A DNA stretch of 64,000 nucleotides, taken from Paraflavitalea pollutisoli (lineage in GTDB: Bacteria > Bacteroidota > Bacteroidia > Chitinophagales > Chitinophagaceae). Both the position numbers and the translations under genes were made by a program. Below, one piece after another: positions 3,101 to 64,000 of the stretch. Location: positions 372,001 to 436,000 of the forward strand of contig NZ_JARKMX010000008.1 of assembly GCF_029360705.1 (NCBI RefSeq), written 5' to 3'. Under the pieces are notes generated by a model. That model searched no databases, was not told where the DNA came from, and saw only the letters and a list, made by a program, of their open reading frames with translations. Numbering within the stretch: position 1 is the stretch's first letter; each line of letters begins with the position of its first letter.

Positions 3101-3610
3101 CTATTGCCTTACCATAATAAATAGTGAGCTGTCCAGGGTGCCGGTAACGTAGCCACGCACGGTATTGGGCATAGATGTGCAGCCTCCGGTCATGGTAAAA
3201 CTGGCGTCGTCATGACTGAGGCGAACTTTCACTTCTTCTGTCATGGCTTTATTCCGCTTTTGAAGTGCCTGGTAGGCGTACACCCTCATCACCGGGCTTT
3301 TACTGTAAGTGAGCTGAAGCCATGCCGTATCGGATAGCAGTCCGTCGAGCAATTTAAAGGATTCATAGGTAGCGCTGGGAGTTCCGCTGATACCTATCCC
3401 TTCCCCCTGGATCTCTTCACTTGCTTCCAGTCTGGCGGTGAGGATTTTAACGACAGCCTCCCGACGTTTTGCCTCCCGCTGTTGCGCGACGATCTTGGGG
3501 TCAGCCCGGTTGAAGTTACAGGCCGATAGGGCGAAAGCGATCAGTAGAACTTTGTACAAACTGTAATGAACGTGGATTAGCGCAGGCAGACAGACGCGGT
3601 TGGTTGACAT
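3101..3610 (-). CDS. Putative lipoprotein of unknown function
   Basis: A 169-residue protein with a lipoprotein signal: a hydrophobic stretch LYKVLLIAFALSAC ending in an L-S-A-C lipobox at about residue 31, then a charged segment rich in Lys/Arg/Glu (QQREAKRREAVVKILTARLEASEE). The remainder has a helical pattern (PVMRVYAYQALQKRNKAM) that loosely recalls HEAT-like repeats seen in Bacteroidota lipoproteins, and ends with a Cys near residue 148. The N-terminal region before the hydrophobic helix is about 17 residues long, somewhat long for a lipoprotein, so a start further downstream is possible although no closer ATG exists. Function unknown. Confidence 0.65.
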   Translation of the reverse strand: MSTNRVCLPALIHVHYSLYKVLLIAFALSACNFNRADPKIVAQQREAKRREAVVKILTARLEASEEIQGEGIGISGTPSATYESFKLLDGLLSDTAWLQLTYSKSPVMRVYAYQALQKRNKAMTEEVKVRLSHDDASFTMTGGCTSMPNTVRGYVTGTLDSSLFIMVRQ

Positions 3611-3807
3611 ATCAATTGATTATCGTTCAGGGTTACCCAAATATGGCGATAAATTGCAGATCCGGAAAGCCGACCGCTACGTTTTAACAAAATTTCACTT
3701 CTTGCGGCAGATAAATAGTCGAATTACACAAACTGTTGATTGCCAAAGGGATATTCCTGTATGCCGGATTCTCGCCTAAAGCATTGATACTGTATGCCGT
3801 TATAGAG

Positions 3808-51224: not shown

Positions 51225-51782
51225 ATGAAACAACGAATCGTTATCCTATTGTCTTCCCTGATGCTCGTGCTGGTGATGACGCAGTGTAAGAAGGGCGATA
51301 CCGGCCCACAAGGTCCCGCAGGTCCACAAGGTCCGCAAGGCCCCGTTGGTACGCCCAATGTGATCTATTCGGAGTGGTTCACAGCTACGCCCTGGATAAA
51401 AGACACGGTGTTTGGCATATGGGGGTTCAAATACAATAAACCAGTGCCAGCGATTACACAACCTGTACTTGATTCCGGGGTGGTACTGGTGTATGGAAAA
51501 CTGCTGGGATATAATCCGGCTGTATGGCCCACCACCCAGGTTGCGCAGCTGCCGATTTTGATCACCTACCTGCAAAGTGGCAAAACCCAGACTGACACCT
51601 GGAGTGGTCTCGCAACGCCCGGTAACCTGCGGATCAGGTTTGTCAACAATACCAACGAATACAATGTCATCGCCACGCAACATCAGTTCCGCTACATTGT
51701 GTTGCCAGGAGGAAAGAAAGATGCCAGGGTTGCGCAGTTGACCTATGCCCAAGTTTGTAAAATGTATCGTATTCCGGAATAG
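51225..51782 (+). CDS. Collagen-like lipoprotein
   Basis: A 185-residue lipoprotein. Signal MKQRIVILLSSLMLVLVMTQC, with the Cys at residue 21 (lipobox MTQC, unusual Gln before Cys), then KK and about six Gly-X-Y triplets (GDTGPQGPAGPQGPQGPVG, residues 24-42). The rest is a beta-rich globular domain (about 45-185: VIYSEWFTATPW, GVVLVYGKLLGYNP, FRYIVLPGGKKDARV). Short collagen-like segments followed by this kind of domain are known in Bacteroidota lipoproteins; the triplet run may trimerise or serve as a stiff spacer lifting the domain from the membrane. Function unknown. Promoter, palindrome and downstream terminator frame it as a single gene. Confidence 0.82.
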   Translation: MKQRIVILLSSLMLVLVMTQCKKGDTGPQGPAGPQGPQGPVGTPNVIYSEWFTATPWIKDTVFGIWGFKYNKPVPAITQPVLDSGVVLVYGKLLGYNPAVWPTTQVAQLPILITYLQSGKTQTDTWSGLATPGNLRIRFVNNTNEYNVIATQHQFRYIVLPGGKKDARVAQLTYAQVCKMYRIPE

Positions 51783-52383: not shown

Positions 52384-53457
52384 ATGAAAAGAGCAATTAC
52401 TCTTTTGGCCATTACCTGCTTAGTATTGAATAGCCAAACCTCCTTAGCCAAGATATGGCGGGTGAACAACAATCCAGGCGTAGCCGCTGATTTTAATAGT
52501 GTTCAGGCAGCTCATGACGGAGCGGCCAACGGGGATACCATCCATGTGGAAGGATCTCCTTTCGGATATGGTAACTTGAATGTTGGTAAGAAGCTAACCA
52601 TCCTGGGTGCTGGCTATTTCCTCGACGAGAATACTGGTTTCCAGGCGCTACAACAGTCTTCCAAAATTGGTCATACAAACTGTTACAATGGCGCACAGGG
52701 AACGGTGTTCATGGGCCTCGAATTCCCGGCTACTGGCATTAATATTTACACGGACAATATCATCATCCGCCGCAATAAATTCTCCTCATTTGCAGGAACC
52801 ACTGAAGATTATTATACCGGCTATGTTGCTGCGTATTATCACAATGAGAACAGCAACATTCCCGTCAACAACGTCATTATCTCTCAAAACTATGGCGTTC
52901 GTGTTTCCGTTAACAATCCTTCAACGGGCATTCTGATCACCAACAACGTGATCGGTGACAACGGCTATACAGGCGATGCCTCTACTGGCTTCTGCCTTTT
53001 TGCTCATGCCAATGCGATTATCCTTGTACAGAACAATATCTTCCGTCGTGGTAAGGTCGGTGCCTCCAACAGCAACTTCACCAACAATATCATGATGTTT
53101 GGCCAATTTGAAGGTCCGGGCAATCTCTACTCCAACAACATCGGTAACGATGCGCAGTTTGGTACTGCCAATGGCAACAAGTCAGGCGTAGCTATGTCTA
53201 CGGTATTTGTAGGCGTTGGTACCGGTGTTACCACAGAAGGTCAGTGGAAACTGAAAGCTGGCTCTCCTGCCTTGAACGCGGGCTACGGCAGTACTGCCCA
53301 GAATCCCATCGACTGCGGCATATACAGCGGACAAAATCCATACATCATCGCCGGTATGCCTCCTATGCCTGCTGTATACTCGTTTGAAGTGCAGCCCATC
53401 GGCAGTAACACCGACCCCATCGATGTAAAAGTGAAAGTGAGGTCGGCAGGGAATTAA
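52384..53457 (+). CDS. Secreted right-handed beta-helix protein
   Basis: A 357-residue exported protein with signal peptide MKRAITLLAITCLVLNSQTSLA. The first part (RVNNNPGVAADFNSVQAAHDGAANGDTIHVEG) is the typical entry into pectate-lyase-like parallel beta-helix proteins, followed by many short Asn/Ile-rich coils (NIIIRRNKFSSF, NNVIISQNYG, GILITNNVIGDNGYTG, ILVQNNIF, GNLYSNNIGND). The end (QWKLKAGSPALNAGYG, DCGIYSGQNPY) is a common cap, and PAVYSFEVQPIGSNTDPIDVKVKVRS closes it. No catalytic motif of a lyase was identified, so binding or adhesion is as likely as polysaccharide cleavage. No T9SS signal was recognised. 106 bp before the giant surface protein gene on the same strand, probably co-expressed. 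Confidence 0.82.
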   Translation: MKRAITLLAITCLVLNSQTSLAKIWRVNNNPGVAADFNSVQAAHDGAANGDTIHVEGSPFGYGNLNVGKKLTILGAGYFLDENTGFQALQQSSKIGHTNCYNGAQGTVFMGLEFPATGINIYTDNIIIRRNKFSSFAGTTEDYYTGYVAAYYHNENSNIPVNNVIISQNYGVRVSVNNPSTGILITNNVIGDNGYTGDASTGFCLFAHANAIILVQNNIFRRGKVGASNSNFTNNIMMFGQFEGPGNLYSNNIGNDAQFGTANGNKSGVAMSTVFVGVGTGVTTEGQWKLKAGSPALNAGYGSTAQNPIDCGIYSGQNPYIIAGMPPMPAVYSFEVQPIGSNTDPIDVKVKVRSAGN

Positions 53458-53563
53458 AACATTCCTGCTGCAGATTGAGTAAACGGATGGGGATACCCTG
53501 CGGGTGTTCCTGCCATCTTTTTGACTGCCTGCGCAAGCGGGTGCTTTCCAATCTTCATCTATT

Positions 53564-56500
53564 ATGCGAACCTTTTTACAACAGGCGTATAAATATACCT
53601 TGGCTGTTGTCGTATTGCTACTGTCGGTATGTGCTGACAGTATAGCTCAATCGATCACCAAGGTGGAGTATTTCGTCGATACCGACCCCGGTATTGGCAA
53701 CGGCACCACGGTATCGGTGACCCCGGGTACGGATGTGACGGCCAGTTTTCAGGTCAACCTGACTGCCTTGACCGCGGGATTTCATCGGCTGTACACCAGG
53801 GGATATATACCTCCCTACCAGGTTACTGAAAACGGTAGTCCGGTTACCAAGGGTGGCTGGTCACATACCAGTAGCCGGTCAATTTACAAAGAAGACTTTA
53901 CCACGATCAATAGTCCTGTTTCTAATGTTGTTGCGGGCGAATATTTTGTGGACGCCGATCCTGGCATTGGAAAAGGAACCGGTATTCCGTTAACACCGGG
54001 CCAGGATCTTACCAGTGTCATTTTTGCCTTTAATATCAATAGCTACAGCGCGGGATTTCACCGGCTGTATATTCGTTTTAAGAATGCCGATGGCGTATGG
54101 GGCCACACTAACAGTCGTACTTTTTATAAAGAAGATCTTTCTGCCAGCAACGGTACGGTACCGAATGTGGTGAAAGGTGAATATTATTTCGATACGGACC
54201 CGGGTTTTGGGGCGGGCATCAATATCCCGTTAACCCCGGGAACGGATATCGCCAACATCGCCTTTACGGCCGACGTGACAAGTCTTACAGAGGGCTTCCA
54301 CCGCCTCTACCTTCGTTTTAAAGATGCCAGTGGTCAATGGGCGACCACCAACAACCGCACTTTCTACAAAGACGCCCTGCTTACCGTTAACAACACGCCA
54401 GCCAATGTTGTAAAGCTGGAATATTATATTGACACCGATCCTGGGTTCGGTAACGGTACCAATGTACCCGTAACACCCGGCACCGATCTCAACAACATCA
54501 CCTTTGCCCTGAATATGGACAATGTGTCGATCGGTAATCATACCTTGTATGTAAGGGCCCTCGATGACAAAGGTCGCTGGAGCCTTACCAACCTGGGTGC
54601 CTTCAAAGTCGATCCTCCTTCCGAATTGATCATATCCCTGGGTACGATCAATGGTGTATTGTGTGCAGGTGCACCAGTAACAGTGCCTTTCAGCGTCAAT
54701 GCGCCTTTCGGATCCAACAATATCTTCACGGCTCAGTTATCGGATGGGAATGGCAATTTTGGTAATCCCACCAATATTGGTACGCTCACCGGGCGCGAAT
54801 CGGATACCATCGATGCCACCATACCTGCGCATTTTGGAGCCAGCAGCAACTACCGCATCCGGGTCATCGGCAGCTCGCCCAATGACACGAGTGGTAATAG
54901 TCCTGCTTTGCGAATACTTCGCAAGCCCGAGAACTTCTGGATCACGGGCGCCAATACAACTTGTATCGGCAACCAGACTTACACCGCGACCAACCTGGTC
55001 ATCGGTAACTATAAATTTGAATGGTCCATCGATGGCGGTGGCACCATGGATACAACAGCGGGCACGAACATTATTACCTGGACCGGCGGCGGCCAACACA
55101 TCGTTACCCTGAAAGTGACGAATGATTGTGGCAGTACGACGGTGACCTTCACTGTATTCGTGTATACGCGTGTGCCACAAAAGAAACCAGTGCTGACGGT
55201 CAGTGGCCGCAACCTGAGTATTCCCGGTTATGTGGCAACGGATAGTGCCAATGGTTACCAGTGGTACAAGAACGGTGTCGCCATTTCCGGAGCAACGGGT
55301 TCGAGCTATAGTGCGGTTGGTGATGGTAGCTTTACAGCGGCTTACAAGAATACTTGTGGAGAAGGTCCACAGTCTGATGCGACCACCTTCGTGGGCGATC
55401 GCCAGCCACAAACGATCACTTTCCCGGCTGTACCGGATCAAATCTACGGTGGCGGCGAGGTCAAGCTGGCCGCGACTACTACGTCGGGCCTGCCCATCAC
55501 CTATACCATCCTCAGCGGGCCAGGTCAACTGAGGAATGATACCCTGGTAATACTGGGTGCCGGTACCATCCGCATCCGTGCCTTCCAGGCCGGTAACGAA
55601 ACTTACAATGAGGCCACTACCGAGATCAATGTGGTGGTGAAGCCGATAGCTGGTACGGTAACGCTTAATAACCTGTCGCTGGTGTACAATGGTGCCGGCA
55701 GGGTGCCCACCGTGACAACAGTTCCCGCCGGACTACCGGTCAGCATTACGTACAACGGTACTGCCGCTGTTCCGGTGAATGCAGGAACCTATGAGGTCAT
55801 CGCTACCATCAATACCAGCAACTATACCGGAGCGGATACCGCCAGCTTTACGATACAAAAAGCTGCCCAGACCATCAACCTGGGCGCGATACCCGACAAA
55901 GTAGTCGGCAGCGATCCGTTCAAGGTAACGGTGAATGCCAGCTCTGGCTTGCCGGTAGCGCTTTCACTGGTAACCACACCGGCCGGTATTGCGGTTTTGT
56001 CTACCGATACCATCAGTATCTCCGGTGCCGGTACCGTCGTGGTGAAAGCCAACCAGGCGGGCAACGCCAATTACCTGGCTGCTACCGAGGTGACAGACAC
56101 CTTCCTGGTCGTACAGACGCCCGACTTGACGGTCTCCAACGTTACCGCTCCTGCCACTTCGGTTGGGCCTAATGATGTCGTAACCATTAACTGGCGGGTG
56201 ACCAATATTGGTACAGGGGCAGCCAACGGCGACTGGACGGAACGCCTCTATATGCAGTCTGCTGCCGGTCAAAACCGCACGCTGATCCAAACGGTGACCT
56301 ATTCCAATGCCAGCGCTTTATCGACCAATGGTTTTGTCAATAGATCAGCAACCGTTACCATTCCGGCCTTGTTCGATATTGGTGATCAGGGCGTATTTGT
56401 AGTGGAACTATTGCCTGGTACTACAGTGAAAGAAGCACCCGGTACACAGGCTAATAATACGGGCGTACAGGCTACAGCCTGGTCGGCCAGCAAACTGCTG

Positions 56501-59500
56501 ACCATTGAGCTGGCTGCCACCCAACTCACGGAAGGAGCACCAGCGGTCAATGGCGCCGTGAAAAGAACTGGTTCCTACGCGGCTCCCCTGACGGTGAACC
56601 TGTCGGTATCCAATCCGTCCAGGATCACGGTACCCGTTACCGTGACCATTCCTGCCGGACAGGCCGGTACCACTTTCACCATCGCTGCACCCGATAATGC
56701 AACGCTCGATGCCACCCTGGCAGATAGCGTGATCGCTATTGCTACCGGTTATGGATCGGGTAAAGTAAGGATCCAGGTGCTGGACAATGACCAGGCTTCC
56801 CTGACGATCACCAACCTGCCTGCCGACATAACAGAAGGGGGCTCGGTGAACTTCCGGATCAATACCAACCTGGCATCATCTACGGCCCTCACCGTGTTCC
56901 TCACATCCACCAGCACCACCCGCTTCCCGGTACCGGCATCCGTGACGATCCCGGCGGGCGCGCTGTTCGTGGACGTTCCCGTAACACTGGTGCAGGACAA
57001 TATTCCTCAAATAGCCGTCGCCGTCACCATCAATGCGGGGGCTGCCAATCATAATCCGGCTACGGGCGTTATCAATGTCAACGACGATGATATCCCTGGC
57101 CTCGAATTGGTTTTCGAAACCAACCTGGTTTCCGAAGGCGCGGGTGCCTTTGCTACCAAGGCGACGCTGAAGCGTGCGGCCAACAGCAGCAATGCAGCCT
57201 TTACCGCCAACCTGACGGCAAACCTGCCCAATACACTCATTATTCCAGCTTCCATTTCACTGGCGGCAGGAGAAAATGAAAAGACGTTTAATGTAGGGGT
57301 GGTCGACAACTCCCTGGCCGATGGTCAGCGGGTGGTCAGCCTGACAGCCTCCGTATTCGTCAACGCTTGCGGATGTAGTGCGCCACCGTCAACGGTCGGT
57401 TCGGTAACCGCCAACCTCACCATCACCGACAACGATGGTCAGGCACTGACGATCACAGCGCCTGTACTGACGCTGCCGGAAGGCCTCGCCAATGCAGGTA
57501 CGATCCGCATCACCCGCAACTCGGCCACTACGGCTGGTATGATCGTGACACTTTCGTCTTCCAACACGAATGAAGCCACCCTCCCACCATCTGTTGTGAT
57601 CCCGGCCGGTGCCGCTTATGTCGATGTGCCGGTAACGACCATCAACGACAACGTGGCCGATGGCGACAAGCAGGTCTACTTCCAGGCAACGTCTGCCGGA
57701 TTCTCTACCGGCTCTATCTGGGTGATCGTTTCCGATCGCAACAAGCCCGATCTGCAGGTGCCGCTGGTGAAGCTCAACAGCAACACCATCCAGGCCATGA
57801 GCACCTTCAGCTACCAGGTGACAGTCACCAATACAGGCTTCTCCACAGCGCCAGCCGGTGTAGTGGTAAGAGGTTATTTGTCGAAAGACAATGTATTTGA
57901 CCTGGCTGATTCACTGATCTCATCGGATGTGATCAATACATCGATCCCGGCAGGTCAAAGTGCACAGGTTGTTAATGCCGTGCAGATGCCTAACCTGCCT
58001 GGTCAGTACAACCTGATCTATGAAGTGAATCCCGATCTGACGATGGAAGAATTGCTCACGACGAACAATACTTCCAATCCGCTCAGCATCTTTATCAACC
58101 CTGATTATACCGCCACAGCCATCGTGAATGCCACCTGGTTCCTGAAGGGCGCAGCCATTCCGGTGACAGGTGTTGCCACCAAGTCCAACGGCACCCCTGC
58201 TGCCAATGCGAAAGTGGAGGTATACGTCCTTACCAATGGCTTGCGCCGGGAATTGACCGCGACAACCAACGCCAGTGGACAGTATTCCGTGCAGTTTGAG
58301 CCGTTGGCCAATGAGGCGGGCCACTACACAGTAGGTGCCAGCTTCCCAGGACTCAAGGCGACGGCAGAGCAGGATAATTTCGACATCCTCGGTGTAGTCA
58401 TCAACAACAATACGCCGCTGCAGGCTAAGGTGACGCTCAACCAAACCCTGACGGGTACCATTCCGGTGCAGAATGTCAGCAACAAGAGCCTGGCTCAGTT
58501 CACGCTGAAGCCGGTGGCCTTGCCCAATGGAGCAACCATCAAGTTCGATACCGTGGCCAACCTGGCGGGTAACAGCACGATACAGCTTGGATATAGTATC
58601 AAAGGAACCGTATTGTCTACCGGAAACTTCTTCGAAAGCGTGTCACTGCAGGCACTCGCTACAGAAGGAACTATTCAAACTACGAATATGTTCTACTTCT
58701 GCCAGGCAGAGCGGGCTTACCTCGTATCGGATCTTACAAAGATCGAGGTACGGGCTTCGCAAACGGCAGGCCAGCGCGTGGTAACAGCCATGCTGATCAA
58801 CCGTGGTGCGGGCAATACTGGTAACATTACCGTCACTCTGCCACAGGTTAAATGGCTGAGCAGTGTTACACCGCTCACGCTGGGCGGTATCAATACCGGC
58901 GACACGACCCTCGTGGTGCTCAAGTTTGAAGCACTGGAAGAAGTGCCCTTTAACTATCCGATCAATGGCAGCATCAATATTGCCGCACAGAACGGCAACA
59001 ACTTCAGCATACCGTTCACCTTCGAAAAGAAGGCCGAATCGAATGGTGCCGTGAAAGTGGCGGTGGTCAACCAGTTCACTTATTATTCGGAAGGACAACC
59101 CAAAGTAGCCGGTGCCCATGTGGTGATCAAGAACTACTTTACGGGTGAAGTATATGCAGAAGGCAATACAGATGCTTCTGGCTTCTTCAACGCTACCAAT
59201 ATACCGCAAGGCAAGCACCGTGTGGTGGTGGAAAAAGAAAAACACCTGCCTTACGACGGTACGGTCATGGTGAACCCAGGCGAAACCACCAACATCAGTG
59301 CCTTTATCAACTACCAGGCGATCACGTTCAGCTGGACGGTCGTGCCGACGGCCATACAGGATCAGTATGACATCACCCTGACGACCAAGTTCGAAACGCA
59401 TGTGCCCATGCCGGTGGTGACCATCGACATGCCGAAAGACATGCCGCAGTTATCGGGCTCCGAGACCTTTGCCTTCAATGTGACCCTGACCAACCACGGT

Positions 59501-62500
59501 CTGATCGCAGCTGAAAATGTAGAGCTGAACCTGCCCAAAGAGGATCCGGAATATGAATTCGTGACGAACTATGTATCCGCCAACCTGAACGCCCAATCCA
59601 GCATCCAGGTACCGGTGATCATGCGGCGTCGAACAACACCATTGGCCGGTGGCCGGATGGGCATCTCCCTGGCCAGCCTGTCGCCCGAACTGGCGATGCG
59701 CTCGAGCTCTGGTGGGTATACCTGCCAGGACTACACCTTCGTACTGTATATGTACAAGTGTGAACTGGCAACGGGCCTCTGGCAGAAAGTAGGCACACTC
59801 ATCAATTACAGCGGTCGCTCTTGTGTCGGCGGACCCAGTACCAGCGACGGTATCCTGATTGGTGGTGGCAGCTTCCCATATGGAGGCAATGGCATCTATT
59901 TCAACATACCCTGTGCATTCTGCGTATTGCCGGGTGCAGGTCCCCGCGGTGAAACACCGGCCTACACTGAAGAGAAGAAGAGCTGTATGCAGTGTATCAA
60001 CGACCTCATCGGCGCTGCTTTCGATTGCGGCGTACCGGATGGTGGTGTGGGTGGTACCATACAATGTATCACGGGTGTTAAACTGGATAACGGTAACTGG
60101 GTGGATTACGTCAAGTGTTTCCTTCCCGACTTTACGCCACCATGGATCAAGTGCCCGATGTCAATCATCGATGCGATCAATACCTGTTCCAACACAGCGG
60201 TAGGAAGCTCGGGCCGCATGGCGCAAAACAATGCGAAGACAGCCGCCGGTGAACTGGGCGCTGTATTCCTCCAGCTTCGAGACGATATACAATTTGTACT
60301 GAACGCCTACTCGCTGCATGACAAATGGTCGCGCGAATACATGGGCAATATCATCGACAATGCAGCCTGGAGCGATCTGAAGCCCATGATGGCCACGCAG
60401 CTGTCGAATGTTGATTCGATCAAGCCGGACAAGCAAGCCGCTATACTGGCAGCTATGACGGGGTATGATATTCAACCATCCGTGTTGCAGGCCTTCTTTA
60501 CCCGCTGGAATACATCGGTATATGCCCGCAGTCAGGCGATCTATGCGCCCAATGCACAGTATCCGAATATCATCAACTGGAACAATGTGAAGATGTATTC
60601 CGATTCCATCATCTACTACCACAATACATCGATCGACAGGGGTTATACAGGTCTGAACGATATGTACATGAAGACCCGTAAAGATCTCGATGTGGCGCTC
60701 GAACAACAAAGCCAGCAGGCAGTGTGTGCTTCGGTAACGGTACAGTTCAGTCAAAAGCTGACCATGACCCGTGAAGCATTCGAGGGTACACTGGATATCT
60801 TCAACGGTCACCCCACGGATAAGATGGATAGCTTGTCTGTGACCTTGCAGATCACCGATGAAAATGGTGTGCCGAGCAATGGTCTCTTCGAGATCCAGAC
60901 CAAGAGCCTGACCAATCTCGCCAATGTAACCGGCACAGGTATCATCAATGCCCAGCAAAGGGGTATGGTCAAGTTCCTCTTCATACCGGAAATCGGTGCT
61001 GCACCACAGGTTCCGAAGGTGTACAACTTCAGCGGATTCGTACGGTATTGGGATCCATACGCGAAAGCCATGGTGAACATGCCGCTCTCGAAAGTGCCGT
61101 TGACGGTCAATCCTAGTCCGAACCTGATGTTGCACTACTTCATGCAGCGCAATATCCTGGGTGATGATGCCCTTACCTCTCCGAAGATCGAGCCTTCTGT
61201 GCCTGCCGAACTGGCGGTCATGGTCGAGAACCAGGGTTATGGTCCTGCCGTGAATATGATGATCTCTTCTGCACAGCCGAAGATCATCGAGAACGAGAAA
61301 GGCCTGGCCATCAATTTCAACCTGATCGGTTCCAACCTGCAGGGACAACCCCGGAACCTGGGTGTTACTGATATCAATTTCGGTACGATCCCGGCGCTGA
61401 GCACCCGCATCGGCCAATGGTATTTCACCAGTTCGTTGCTCGGTAAGTTCGTGAGCTACGAAGCGAATGTGGTGCATGCCAACAGCTTCGGTAACCCGGA
61501 CCTCAGTCTCGTGAAGGGTGTTAAACTGCATGAACTGACGAAGAGCATCAAAGCTTATGGAGCGCTGGATGATGGTATTACCGACTTCCTGGTCAATGAT
61601 CTGTTCGATGTGAACGACCAGCCAGATATCATCTATTTCTCACAAGGCAATAAAACGGCAAAGGTCAGTCCTGCTACGGCGGGTAACTTCTCCGGTGCGC
61701 CGACAGCACCAGCCTTTAGTACCACGCTGACGGTAACTCCTTCGGTAGTGGGCTGGAACTATATCAAGCTCACCGATCCGGGCAATAACGAGTTCGAGAT
61801 CGAGAGCGTAACCCGCAGCGATGGTCAGGCAATACCGCTCGACAACGCATGGCTCACCTTCGTGACCCTGCCGGTAAGCCGTCCGCCGGTTTACGAGAAC
61901 AAGTTCCACTTCGTGGATACCTTCTCTACCCAGGCAGCGACCACGTATACGGTAGTCTGGAAAGCGAAACCACAAACGGTGCCGGCCATTGTGAGCATCA
62001 ACGGAGCTCCGACGCAGGTATCGGCCACGCAAGTCAAAGAGCTGACCGTCGTATTCAATAAAGGCATCGACGCGGCTACCTTTACGAAAGAAGACATGAC
62101 GCTGACCTTCCAGGGAGGCGCCAACCTGATCGATAATTCCGTGGTGATCACGCGGATGGACTCGGCCACCTTCAAGGTGGACCTGTCCAACCTCACCACC
62201 GGCAATGGCTTCTACAACTTTACCGTACAGGCTACCGAAGTAGCCGACCTGTTTGGCAACAAGGGAGAGGAAGGTAAGAATGTGACCTGGTCACAATTCC
62301 TGACTATTCCGACGGTCGAAGCTTTCCTGGCTATTCCTGCCAGCAAAACAGCGGTCAACTTCGATACGATCCAGGTATTGTTTAACCTGCCGATCGATCG
62401 CACCACGGTGACGCCAGCTAAGTTCATCATCACCAAAGACGGTGTAACGCAAAGCGGCTCAGTAGTCATCGATTCGGTACGGGCAGATAATAAGTTGTTC

Positions 62501-64000
62501 TACCTGTCGGGTCTGGGCAATATACTGACGACACCGGGTAACTATGTGTTCACCGTAGACCTCCCGACGATCAAAACAACGGGCCAGGTAGCGGGTATGG
62601 CACAACAGTCGGTTACCCTGACGGTCGACAATGCAGGACCAGCGATCGTGAAGCTGGAAACATCGGCCACCGGTGGCCTGGATGCGCAGCATATACCATT
62701 CGTGAAGATCGAGTTTACGGAGCCTGCGGTCGGCTTTAACACCGCCGCGCTCAGTCTCCGGTGGAATGGTCAGGTGGTACCGATCACTTTCGATATGTTG
62801 TCGAATACCGACCTGCAACACTGGACAGCCGGCAACTTCGGTATGCTGACTTATCCCGACGGCGAGTATGTGTTCACGATCGATCTGAGCCTGGTAAAAG
62901 ATGCGCTGGGCAATGCGGGTACAGGTACACAAACGGTTAGCTGGACGGTCAACCGTTCTGCGCTGATCACGATCAGCAACCTGAAGGTGGCGCCCGATGC
63001 CGGTTACAGCGACAACGATAACATCACCAATGGTCAGCACCTGCAGGTACAGTTTAGCCTGAGTGCGGCCGCCACACAAGTGACGGTGTCACAAACCGAC
63101 CTGAGTGGTGAAACGGTGTTGAATACGGTACAAAATGTGGTGGCGGGCAATACGTCGATACCGGTTACCCTCTTCAAAGGTGGTAATACAGGTATCCGGG
63201 TGATGGCTAGCGGCGCCAATGGTGGCATCGATACGGCCGACGTGCAATTGTTCGTGGATGATGCTCCGCTGACAGCCTCCTGGTTGTTGAAGAATGATAC
63301 GAGTATGGCACGGCAGATGGATACGGTGATGCTGAAGTTTGGTGCGAAACTGCTGAGCAATGCCCAGGTGGACACAGCCCTGAAACTGACCCGCAATGGC
63401 GTGGCGGTCACGGTGGCCGGTCTGGCGGTGCGCGCACTCAATGACACGGTATATACGGTGAGTGGTTTGCGCAGCGGAAGTACAGCACCGGGCGCTTACA
63501 AACTGGTCATCAATGCAGCTCCATTTAGTAAATACACGAGTGGTAAACCGGGCGATGGACTGGTAGCCGTCAACTGGACGGTCGTATCTACCAACCGGGC
63601 ACCGGTGGCCAACGCGGGTACGGATGTGGTCGTCAACGAGGGTACGGTGGTCGCGCTGGACGGTTCGGCTTCCTCAGATCCTGATGGAGATGTACTGACC
63701 TATACCTGGGTGGCGCCGGAAGGCATCGAGCTCGATGATTCCACACTGGCTAAGCCTTCCTTTATAGCAACGGCAGCCCACCGCGGTAAAACGTATTCGC
63801 TGCTGCTGGTGGTCAGTGATGGTAACCTGATTTCGACTGATGTGGTGGAGGTGAAGATCGATGGAGCGCCTACGGGCCTGATCGTTTCGGCCAAAGCCTT
63901 CCTGCACGGCCCGTATGTGGCGGCAACCGGCAATATGACGGATAGCTTGCGGAAGAAAGGACTGATCCCCACGATCGATCCTTACCCTGCCCTTGGCTTC
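53564..64000 (+). CDS. Giant secreted multidomain surface protein (3' end outside the window)
   Basis: The frame is open from ATG 53564 to the right edge, 3479 residues without a stop. Signal peptide to about 28, then four tandem about 80-90 residue repeats (33-353; core YF-D-DPG-G-G and GFHRLY-R). Further modules: PKD-like (459-536), Ig-like (540-610), MBG-type (695-770), CARDB (853-970), several Calx-beta-like repeats (980-1386; LTITNLPADITEGGSVNFRI), a second CARDB (1394-1516), a carboxypeptidase-regulatory-like module (1846-1900), a Cys-rich island (2056-2212), a large conserved-looking core (2389-2693; SAQPKIIENEKGLAINF), bacterial Ig-like domains (2806-3340) and a PKD domain (3346-3430). 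The last residues (AKAFLHGPYV, RKKGLIPTIDPYPALGF) are the module that normally precedes a T9SS sorting signal, so export by T9SS is expected. Adhesion is likely. Minus-strand frames here are antisense shadows. Confidence 0.88.
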   Translation, partial: MRTFLQQAYKYTLAVVVLLLSVCADSIAQSITKVEYFVDTDPGIGNGTTVSVTPGTDVTASFQVNLTALTAGFHRLYTRGYIPPYQVTENGSPVTKGGWSHTSSRSIYKEDFTTINSPVSNVVAGEYFVDADPGIGKGTGIPLTPGQDLTSVIFAFNINSYSAGFHRLYIRFKNADGVWGHTNSRTFYKEDLSASNGTVPNVVKGEYYFDTDPGFGAGINIPLTPGTDIANIAFTADVTSLTEGFHRLYLRFKDASGQWATTNNRTFYKDALLTVNNTPANVVKLEYYIDTDPGFGNGTNVPVTPGTDLNNITFALNMDNVSIGNHTLYVRALDDKGRWSLTNLGAFKVDPPSELIISLGTINGVLCAGAPVTVPFSVNAPFGSNNIFTAQLSDGNGNFGNPTNIGTLTGRESDTIDATIPAHFGASSNYRIRVIGSSPNDTSGNSPALRILRKPENFWITGANTTCIGNQTYTATNLVIGNYKFEWSIDGGGTMDTTAGTNIITWTGGGQHIVTLKVTNDCGSTTVTFTVFVYTRVPQKKPVLTVSGRNLSIPGYVATDSANGYQWYKNGVAISGATGSSYSAVGDGSFTAAYKNTCGEGPQSDATTFVGDRQPQTITFPAVPDQIYGGGEVKLAATTTSGLPITYTILSGPGQLRNDTLVILGAGTIRIRAFQAGNETYNEATTEINVVVKPIAGTVTLNNLSLVYNGAGRVPTVTTVPAGLPVSITYNGTAAVPVNAGTYEVIATINTSNYTGADTASFTIQKAAQTINLGAIPDKVVGSDPFKVTVNASSGLPVALSLVTTPAGIAVLSTDTISISGAGTVVVKANQAGNANYLAATEVTDTFLVVQTPDLTVSNVTAPATSVGPNDVVTINWRVTNIGTGAANGDWTERLYMQSAAGQNRTLIQTVTYSNASALSTNGFVNRSATVTIPALFDIGDQGVFVVELLPGTTVKEAPGTQANNTGVQATAWSASKLLTIELAATQLTEGAPAVNGAVKRTGSYAAPLTVNLSVSNPSRITVPVTVTIPAGQAGTTFTIAAPDNATLDATLADSVIAIATGYGSGKVRIQVLDNDQASLTITNLPADITEGGSVNFRINTNLASSTALTVFLTSTSTTRFPVPASVTIPAGALFVDVPVTLVQDNIPQIAVAVTINAGAANHNPATGVINVNDDDIPGLELVFETNLVSEGAGAFATKATLKRAANSSNAAFTANLTANLPNTLIIPASISLAAGENEKTFNVGVVDNSLADGQRVVSLTASVFVNACGCSAPPSTVGSVTANLTITDNDGQALTITAPVLTLPEGLANAGTIRITRNSATTAGMIVTLSSSNTNEATLPPSVVIPAGAAYVDVPVTTINDNVADGDKQVYFQATSAGFSTGSIWVIVSDRNKPDLQVPLVKLNSNTIQAMSTFSYQVTVTNTGFSTAPAGVVVRGYLSKDNVFDLADSLISSDVINTSIPAGQSAQVVNAVQMPNLPGQYNLIYEVNPDLTMEELLTTNNTSNPLSIFINPDYTATAIVNATWFLKGAAIPVTGVATKSNGTPAANAKVEVYVLTNGLRRELTATTNASGQYSVQFEPLANEAGHYTVGASFPGLKATAEQDNFDILGVVINNNTPLQAKVTLNQTLTGTIPVQNVSNKSLAQFTLKPVALPNGATIKFDTVANLAGNSTIQLGYSIKGTVLSTGNFFESVSLQALATEGTIQTTNMFYFCQAERAYLVSDLTKIEVRASQTAGQRVVTAMLINRGAGNTGNITVTLPQVKWLSSVTPLTLGGINTGDTTLVVLKFEALEEVPFNYPINGSINIAAQNGNNFSIPFTFEKKAESNGAVKVAVVNQFTYYSEGQPKVAGAHVVIKNYFTGEVYAEGNTDASGFFNATNIPQGKHRVVVEKEKHLPYDGTVMVNPGETTNISAFINYQAITFSWTVVPTAIQDQYDITLTTKFETHVPMPVVTIDMPKDMPQLSGSETFAFNVTLTNHGLIAAENVELNLPKEDPEYEFVTNYVSANLNAQSSIQVPVIMRRRTTPLAGGRMGISLASLSPELAMRSSSGGYTCQDYTFVLYMYKCELATGLWQKVGTLINYSGRSCVGGPSTSDGILIGGGSFPYGGNGIYFNIPCAFCVLPGAGPRGETPAYTEEKKSCMQCINDLIGAAFDCGVPDGGVGGTIQCITGVKLDNGNWVDYVKCFLPDFTPPWIKCPMSIIDAINTCSNTAVGSSGRMAQNNAKTAAGELGAVFLQLRDDIQFVLNAYSLHDKWSREYMGNIIDNAAWSDLKPMMATQLSNVDSIKPDKQAAILAAMTGYDIQPSVLQAFFTRWNTSVYARSQAIYAPNAQYPNIINWNNVKMYSDSIIYYHNTSIDRGYTGLNDMYMKTRKDLDVALEQQSQQAVCASVTVQFSQKLTMTREAFEGTLDIFNGHPTDKMDSLSVTLQITDENGVPSNGLFEIQTKSLTNLANVTGTGIINAQQRGMVKFLFIPEIGAAPQVPKVYNFSGFVRYWDPYAKAMVNMPLSKVPLTVNPSPNLMLHYFMQRNILGDDALTSPKIEPSVPAELAVMVENQGYGPAVNMMISSAQPKIIENEKGLAINFNLIGSNLQGQPRNLGVTDINFGTIPALSTRIGQWYFTSSLLGKFVSYEANVVHANSFGNPDLSLVKGVKLHELTKSIKAYGALDDGITDFLVNDLFDVNDQPDIIYFSQGNKTAKVSPATAGNFSGAPTAPAFSTTLTVTPSVVGWNYIKLTDPGNNEFEIESVTRSDGQAIPLDNAWLTFVTLPVSRPPVYENKFHFVDTFSTQAATTYTVVWKAKPQTVPAIVSINGAPTQVSATQVKELTVVFNKGIDAATFTKEDMTLTFQGGANLIDNSVVITRMDSATFKVDLSNLTTGNGFYNFTVQATEVADLFGNKGEEGKNVTWSQFLTIPTVEAFLAIPASKTAVNFDTIQVLFNLPIDRTTVTPAKFIITKDGVTQSGSVVIDSVRADNKLFYLSGLGNILTTPGNYVFTVDLPTIKTTGQVAGMAQQSVTLTVDNAGPAIVKLETSATGGLDAQHIPFVKIEFTEPAVGFNTAALSLRWNGQVVPITFDMLSNTDLQHWTAGNFGMLTYPDGEYVFTIDLSLVKDALGNAGTGTQTVSWTVNRSALITISNLKVAPDAGYSDNDNITNGQHLQVQFSLSAAATQVTVSQTDLSGETVLNTVQNVVAGNTSIPVTLFKGGNTGIRVMASGANGGIDTADVQLFVDDAPLTASWLLKNDTSMARQMDTVMLKFGAKLLSNAQVDTALKLTRNGVAVTVAGLAVRALNDTVYTVSGLRSGSTAPGAYKLVINAAPFSKYTSGKPGDGLVAVNWTVVSTNRAPVANAGTDVVVNEGTVVALDGSASSDPDGDVLTYTWVAPEGIELDDSTLAKPSFIATAAHRGKTYSLLLVVSDGNLISTDVVEVKIDGAPTGLIVSAKAFLHGPYVAATGNMTDSLRKKGLIPTIDPYPALGF
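53663..54620 (+). repeat. Four tandem about 240-bp coding repeats at the start of the giant gene
   Basis: Units begin near 53663, 53936, 54176 and 54416. Each encodes a strand EYF/YxDxDPGxGxG, IPLTPGTD, and GFHRLYxRxKD..G.W followed by R.FYK. The first unit carries about 10 extra residues (YIPPYQVTEN region). Similarity at DNA level is moderate, so the expansion is not very recent. Confidence 0.8.

Follow-up and report, generated by a model that had tools for sequence, protein, structure and literature searches.

Cohesin–dockerin anchoring is known from cellulosomes. Like the cohesin–dockerin pairs and anchoring scaffoldins of clostridial cellulosomes, the locus of Paraflavitalea pollutisoli analysed here combines a client that ends in a duplicated calcium-loop tail with a second secreted protein that carries the predicted receptor domain, and one of its relatives (in genome G327) has nine tandem receptor domains. 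Unlike in the cellulosome, no enzyme domain was found by Pfam in the visible part of the giant client, and the locus is not classed as a cellulosome. Furthermore, its partner protein has only one receptor domain and is encoded next to its client, the surface anchor is a T9SS CTD, and the pair itself combines 16-residue calcium loops with a receptor class that lacks a family match. A second comparable complex has been inferred from genomes of 'Ca. Stygibacter' (Cloacimonadota), in which a CTD-bearing cohesin scaffold is accompanied by clients with C-terminal dockerins (PMC8542988). There, too, the cohesins reside on a CTD protein for surface attachment, but the phylum is another one and the scaffold is a 3,755-aa protein with CBMs serving enzyme clients, rather than a small dedicated partner; extended loops and gene pairs are not mentioned in section 7 of that account (PMC8542988). 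A review of T9SS effectors sorts CTDs into types A, B and C; its main text contains neither the word 'dockerin' nor the word 'cohesin' (PMC10202324). T9SS type B substrates with their PorP/SprF proteins, as presented in the same review, likewise pair a surface protein with a helper of its own, the genes being usually clustered; there, however, the CTD is on the substrate and the helper is a beta-barrel, whereas here the client is CTD-less and the helper bears the CTD (PMC10202324). For cellulolytic Bacteroidetes, two papers report no dockerins in the genomes treated (PMC5831590, PMC6247017). We found no account of a tail–partner pair in Bacteroidota in the open-access PMC literature.

The window, i.e. 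the whole stretch of 64,000 nt that was analysed, breaks off within the gene of the giant client, which follows a smaller gene at the distance given by the sequence-only reading (Table 1). Reading onward in the same contig, we found the giant's frame open, without frameshift, up to a stop at window-equivalent position 64618, which confirms a complete multidomain protein, now of 3684 aa (390 kDa, pI 5.0). Its start is signal-peptide-like by eye, and its body is a mosaic of PKD-like, MBG, CARDB, carboxypeptidase-regulatory and Ig-like domains according to Pfam. No tandem DNA repeats were found. A Cys-rich stretch at about 59723-60187 (residues 2054-2208), with 12 of 21 Cys, has no Pfam match. 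Two candidate relationships were dropped: the NCBIfam model ECF_sub_HI1622 scores 26.8 bits against a cut-off of 100, and for the TANFOR polymorphic toxins (PMC7073777) there is no NCBIfam match of that name on the giant. Upstream of the cassette, a 185-aa lipoprotein-like ORF (51225-51782) contains a short collagen-like Gly-x-y stretch, and a relative of this ORF lies near the cassette in L104.

Table 1. Features of the locus; positions are those of the window, continued in the same numbering beyond its edge where stated.
Feature	Position	Strand	Remarks
Window	G000:C15:372001-436000		64,000 nt; assembly 8.76 Mb
Beta-helix gene (probable)	52384..53457	+	357 aa, ATG start; secreted; 106 bp before giant gene
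Giant gene, visible part	53564..64000	+	ORF call, 3479 aa visible, 3' end open at edge
N-terminal module, four DTDPG/DADPG repeats	53651..54613	+	residues 30-350; motifs at 39, 130, 210, 290
MBG_3 domain	55655..55864	+	residues 698-767, Pfam
PKD domain near C-terminus	63593..63856	+	residues 3344-3431, Pfam PKD_4 and K319L-like_PKD
Start of HRNHLGVMT module	63875..64000	+	from residue about 3438; window edge cuts module
Dockerin-like tail	window-equivalent 64346-64615	+	residues about 3595-3684; beyond window
Partner gene	window-equivalent 64636-65694 (L002:13637-14695)	+	352 aa; 17 bp after giant's stop; beyond window

The last ~250 residues of the giant comprise the HRNHLGVMT module and a ~95-aa tail with two dockerin-type calcium-loop repeats. 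The sequence-only reading had taken the last visible segment for a C-terminal module leading to a T9SS sorting signal, and had named the absence of that signal as evidence against itself. The segment is indeed a recognisable C-terminal module, but it leads to the dockerin-like tail instead: the last 340 aa have no match to TIGR04183, TIGR04131, PF18962 or PF13585 at E<=1. TIGR04183 has 109 matches in the same genome, 108 of them above the cut-off; one is on the gene after the giant and none is in the giant.

A search with the last 253 aa of the giant found one match in its own genome; across the class, 50 of 395 genomes contained matches, about six of which were listed per genome. A shorter tail profile yielded a second, weak match in the own genome (E 2e-4). 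The best tail match was fetched for 45 of the 50 tail genomes (missing were G156, G235, G284, G295 and G337, of which G284 was fetched afterwards for its partner domain). From the fetched loci, 69 tails were cut, L081 being excluded because of extra sequence after its tail. Taken singly, 26 of the 69 match Pfam Dockerin_1 at E<=0.5, with a best value of 2.6e-10. Searched against the PDB, the joint tail profile places two chains named 'Serine protease' on top (6e-12), which carry the same kind of repeat, and next cellulosomal dockerins (2b59_B 5.6e-7, 2vn5_B 9e-7 and many more). The Asp at the loop end is present in loop 1 of 69/69 tails and in loop 2 of 67/69, the other two having Glu. Profile comparison thereby establishes that the tail family is homologous to dockerins. 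The loops are mainly 12 or 16 residues long (21 versus 31 tails for loop 1, 34 versus 31 for loop 2). The window's own tail has two loops of the form D-x-N-x-D-G...N-D and ends in ITQQLP; both loops have 16 residues and are thus extended relative to the canonical 12. Alone, this tail matches EF-hand models only, and weakly (0.014). The case for counting it as a dockerin comes chiefly from the alignment of the whole family, because the profile of 24 extended tails, whose best PDB match is a dockerin, reaches it at an E of only 0.067.

The gene following the giant encodes a protein in which an N-domain is followed by a region that looks FN3-like by eye and by a T9SS type A CTD. The N-domain has no family match, is beta-rich by eye and occurs in a single copy. 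The CTD scores 35.8 bits with Pfam (cut-off 27) and 27.2 bits with TIGR04183 (cut-off 23), which makes the partner a T9SS type A substrate by CTD match. A scan for regulatory sites found four promoter-like sites around the giant–partner junction against 1.8 expected and one terminator-like site against 2.0, and no site of either kind at the junction itself. AlphaFold models of the partner and of the giant's C-terminus, built on two-sequence alignments, were too poor for use (pLDDT 48 and 40). L064, considered as a paralogue of the partner in the same genome, turned out to be merely an FN3-plus-CTD protein.

The cassette recurs in related genomes. Over the parts compared, the giant and the downstream protein are 76% and 69% identical in Paraflavitalea sp. 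CAU 1676 (L085) and 74% and 68% identical in a Niastella sp. MAG (L086); L104 and L105 stem from the same genomes as L085 and L086, and L065 and L103 are one place. Of the five same-genus genomes listed, four retain beta-helix, giant and partner in this order, which supports the sequence-only reading in that the beta-helix gene is a conserved neighbour; the fifth is G602. Moreover, the partner follows the tail independently of the protein body. The HRNHLGVMT module and tail are found on a 994-aa protein in G467 (module 53% identical, partner 52%), on a 597-aa protein that is the second copy in G475 (53% and 42%), on a 3573-aa protein in G293, which belongs to another family (44% and 38%), and on a 3801-aa protein in G602, where the module is 35% identical and a 396-aa CTD-bearing protein is encoded 27 bp on. 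The first three proteins have no match to other parts of the giant at E<=0.01, and the G602 protein has no body match at E<=1 and an N-module match no better than 0.27. All four of these body-swapped proteins have a CTD-bearing partner 10-27 bp downstream, the CTD being recognised by homology or Pfam.

We grouped partner N-domains into two profiles, A7 (11 rows) and A8 (9 rows); the window's partner belongs to class A8. The 91 loci scanned contain 93 tails, 34 of which have an A7 or A8 ORF on the same strand within 1.2 kb (29 downstream, 5 upstream); these counts are not rates, since the loci were picked for tails or for partner domains. The remaining 59 tails have no such neighbour, and many of them are in family f10 (genus g21); at some of the 59 the next gene has the same layout and is beyond the reach of the profiles (L066, L067, L068, L071, L078 and others; partly by eye). 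In L126 and L077, the tail gene was found in the scan of the 91 loci and had been missed by the greedy ORF caller. The f10 genomes of genus g21 are rich in tails: G154 has 15 matches and G211 has 18, and almost all of these run into a stop codon. Among the matches listed, one A8 gene is present in 6 of the 15 tail genomes of f10: two of these six genes are beside a tail gene, one is two genes away and three have no tail in the fetched 8 kb. We also collected 30 neighbours by eye; L074 (two genes away), L106 and L107 lie upstream of their tail genes, and L113 lacks a CTD. TIGR04183 matches 25 of the 30 at E<=0.01, Pfam Por_Secre_tail 25 at E<=0.5 and CHU_C two. In the same set, NCBIfam recognises two members as PorQ-type (best 2e-98) and one as PorZ-type (2.5e-15); the PorQ-type members are presumably L106:5298-6359 and L107:10568-11626, immediately before tail genes, and the PorZ-type member is presumably the propeller protein L122:3488-4795.

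Both profiles were run over the same 395 genomes, and the best nine or ten matches were scored. Among the matches listed, the A8 domain is found in 10 genomes, all 10 of which have a tail, and the A7 domain in 25, of which 18 do. Taken together, 27 of the 34 genomes with A7 or A8 also have a tail (Fisher 8e-22); this raw figure includes 13 seed genomes, which are circular evidence because the profile rows came from genes beside tails. After their removal, 14 of 21 A7/A8 genomes have a tail compared with 37 of 382 overall (Fisher 4e-11, phylogeny ignored), with A8 contributing 6/6, all of one genus, and A7 9/16. Counted by family, again without seed genomes, the figure is 8/12 (p 4e-6 if there are 76 families; the family tables were compiled by hand from listings, and 76 or more families are assumed). 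For three of the seven A7 genomes without a tail match in this comparison (G177, G205, G325), the tail profile does reveal a tail gene beside the A7 gene.

Tail class matches partner class. The second loop is long in 12 of 12 A8 pairs (16 residues, once 17) and short in 21 of 22 A7 pairs (under 15, nearly all 12), an association with p 2e-8, or p 0.001 by family (5 against 11), phylogeny being ignored and one A8 locus being counted twice, with some A7 genes serving several tails. The scaffoldin-like relative in G327 is a 2354-aa protein (L180:4128-11192) with nine tandem A7 domains, encoded directly downstream of a tail gene; its CTD match is below threshold (20.9 bits, cut-off 27). Another scaffoldin-like protein, L182:3780-6305, has three A7 domains, and at L189:2450-6360 and L190:3946-7981 three single-domain A7 proteins stand in a row, with ends that resemble CTDs (one confirmed by Pfam); no tail match was obtained in the fetched stretches of the latter two loci.

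Are the N-domains related to cohesins? A profile of five N-domains found just two matches at E<10 among 177,635 PDB sequences, 1g1k and 2vn5_A (0.0074), both named 'scaffolding protein', which we take to be cohesin modules. With 26 N-domains, the same two chains headed the list (0.05), ahead of Hcp1 in third place (0.21) and a named cohesin in fourth (1.1); with the 11-sequence A7 profile, Hcp1 (0.0022) and a lectin (0.009) ranked above cohesins (0.085). Pfam Cohesin matches 3 of the 26 N-domains, at best with 0.003; the two inspected matches span most of the model and are below the curated cut-off. At E<=1, Pfam Cohesin did not match the full-length protein with nine A7 domains. The A7 class appears weakly cohesin-like. 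For A8, the window's own class, PDB profiles revealed no cohesin and hhalign aligned it to the A7 set with a probability of 0.6%; by these comparisons, it is without a sequence link to cohesins. A8 occupies the same position as A7 relative to tails. The A8/extended-loop class is the least explained part of the system.

Overall, we consider it probable that the locus encodes a dockerin/cohesin-like, T9SS-sorted anchoring cassette, in which the tail of the CTD-less giant docks into the CTD-bearing partner; binding, anchoring, calcium dependence and export route are what we infer. The dockerin-like calcium plug at the giant's end would dock non-covalently into the partner's N-domain, and the partner's CTD would bring the pair to the outer surface and fix it there. 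Being a T9SS substrate with a type A CTD, the partner would direct the giant to its place on the outside of the cell and keep it there; the giant itself might pass the outer membrane in company with the partner, or might get across by a different route and be captured afterwards. A bolder version, which we find possible yet doubtful, is that T9SS exports CTD-less giants as passengers: tails would dock on a small CTD-bearing carrier in the periplasm, both would cross together, and a few carriers would serve many clients through two co-evolved plug/receptor classes, one of which, the 16-residue loops with the A8 domain, would have a receptor that cannot be recognised as a cohesin. The carrier-to-client ratio bears on this version, G154 and G211 having one A8 match each against the numbers of tail matches given above, and diverged carriers do exist (e.g. 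L074:3417-4232).

It is unlikely, in our judgement, that the tail is itself a further sorting signal, a fourth type of T9SS CTD, with the partner as an accessory or processing factor. As expected of a sorting signal, tails sit C-terminally on sets of proteins, as in G154 and G211, and 36 of 69 end in Q-[LIVY]-P; two PorQ-like genes, presumably those in L106 and L107, also lie beside tail genes. On the other hand, Q-x-P is missing from the other 33 of 69 tails, proteins with ordinary CTDs adjoin the tails, and CTDs analysed structurally are beta-sandwiches according to the abstract of one paper (PMC11285876), whereas the tail family is homologous to dockerins by profile. A gliding or adhesion filament, put forward by the sequence-only reading and taken here as one of SprB type, would suit the giant's size and its mosaic of Ig-like, PKD and CARDB domains. 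We hold it to be very improbable, since neither an SprB repeat nor a type B CTD was matched on the giant and no SprF-type match was found among the neighbouring genes scanned; adhesion as such may be a role of the giant. Calcium-loop repeats have structural roles in other proteins, and a tail that binds calcium, as predicted here, might just stiffen the protein's end, with the giant released or otherwise held and the partner merely a co-regulated surface protein. That account, too, seems improbable to us, though less so than the filament, as the partner stays with the tail where the protein body is an unrelated one, and the class of its domain corresponds to that of the loops.

The anchoring cassette that we favour concerns the C-terminal end of the giant; a second, independent neighbour rule holds for its other end. 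The 357-aa protein encoded upstream is probably a right-handed beta-helix. In the window's own protein this character was recognised by eye, with no Pfam match of note and no PDB sequence match, whereas a paralogue 31% identical to it matches Pfam Beta_helix PF13229 above the cut-off (one of six paralogues scanned). In all eight loci with paralogous beta-helix genes, from three genomes, the next protein has the giant's N-terminal module (32-51% identity), in keeping with the proposal of the sequence-only reading that the small protein is a partner of the giant, here of its N-terminal repeats. No CTD was found on the 357-aa protein, and from gene order alone it would attach at the giant's DTDPG repeats. 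Six of the eight DTDPG proteins end in a type A CTD of their own, and in two none was found; there is no A7, A8 or tail match in the fetched stretches of these loci, including all 185 ORFs of at least 100 aa. In L201:2716-16000 and L202:3186-16000, the DTDPG protein without a CTD match is followed by a large gene, which in L201 has 21 RHS repeat stretches and a polymorphic-toxin-like layout.

Docking to a tagged neighbour would be a concrete, testable explanation for the sorting of large surface proteins of Bacteroidota that lack a T9SS signal, and it would link cellulosome-type plugs to T9SS in a major phylum. The last 95 residues of many proteins would then indicate where these proteins end up, and natural plug/receptor pairs with two apparent specificities would be at hand.
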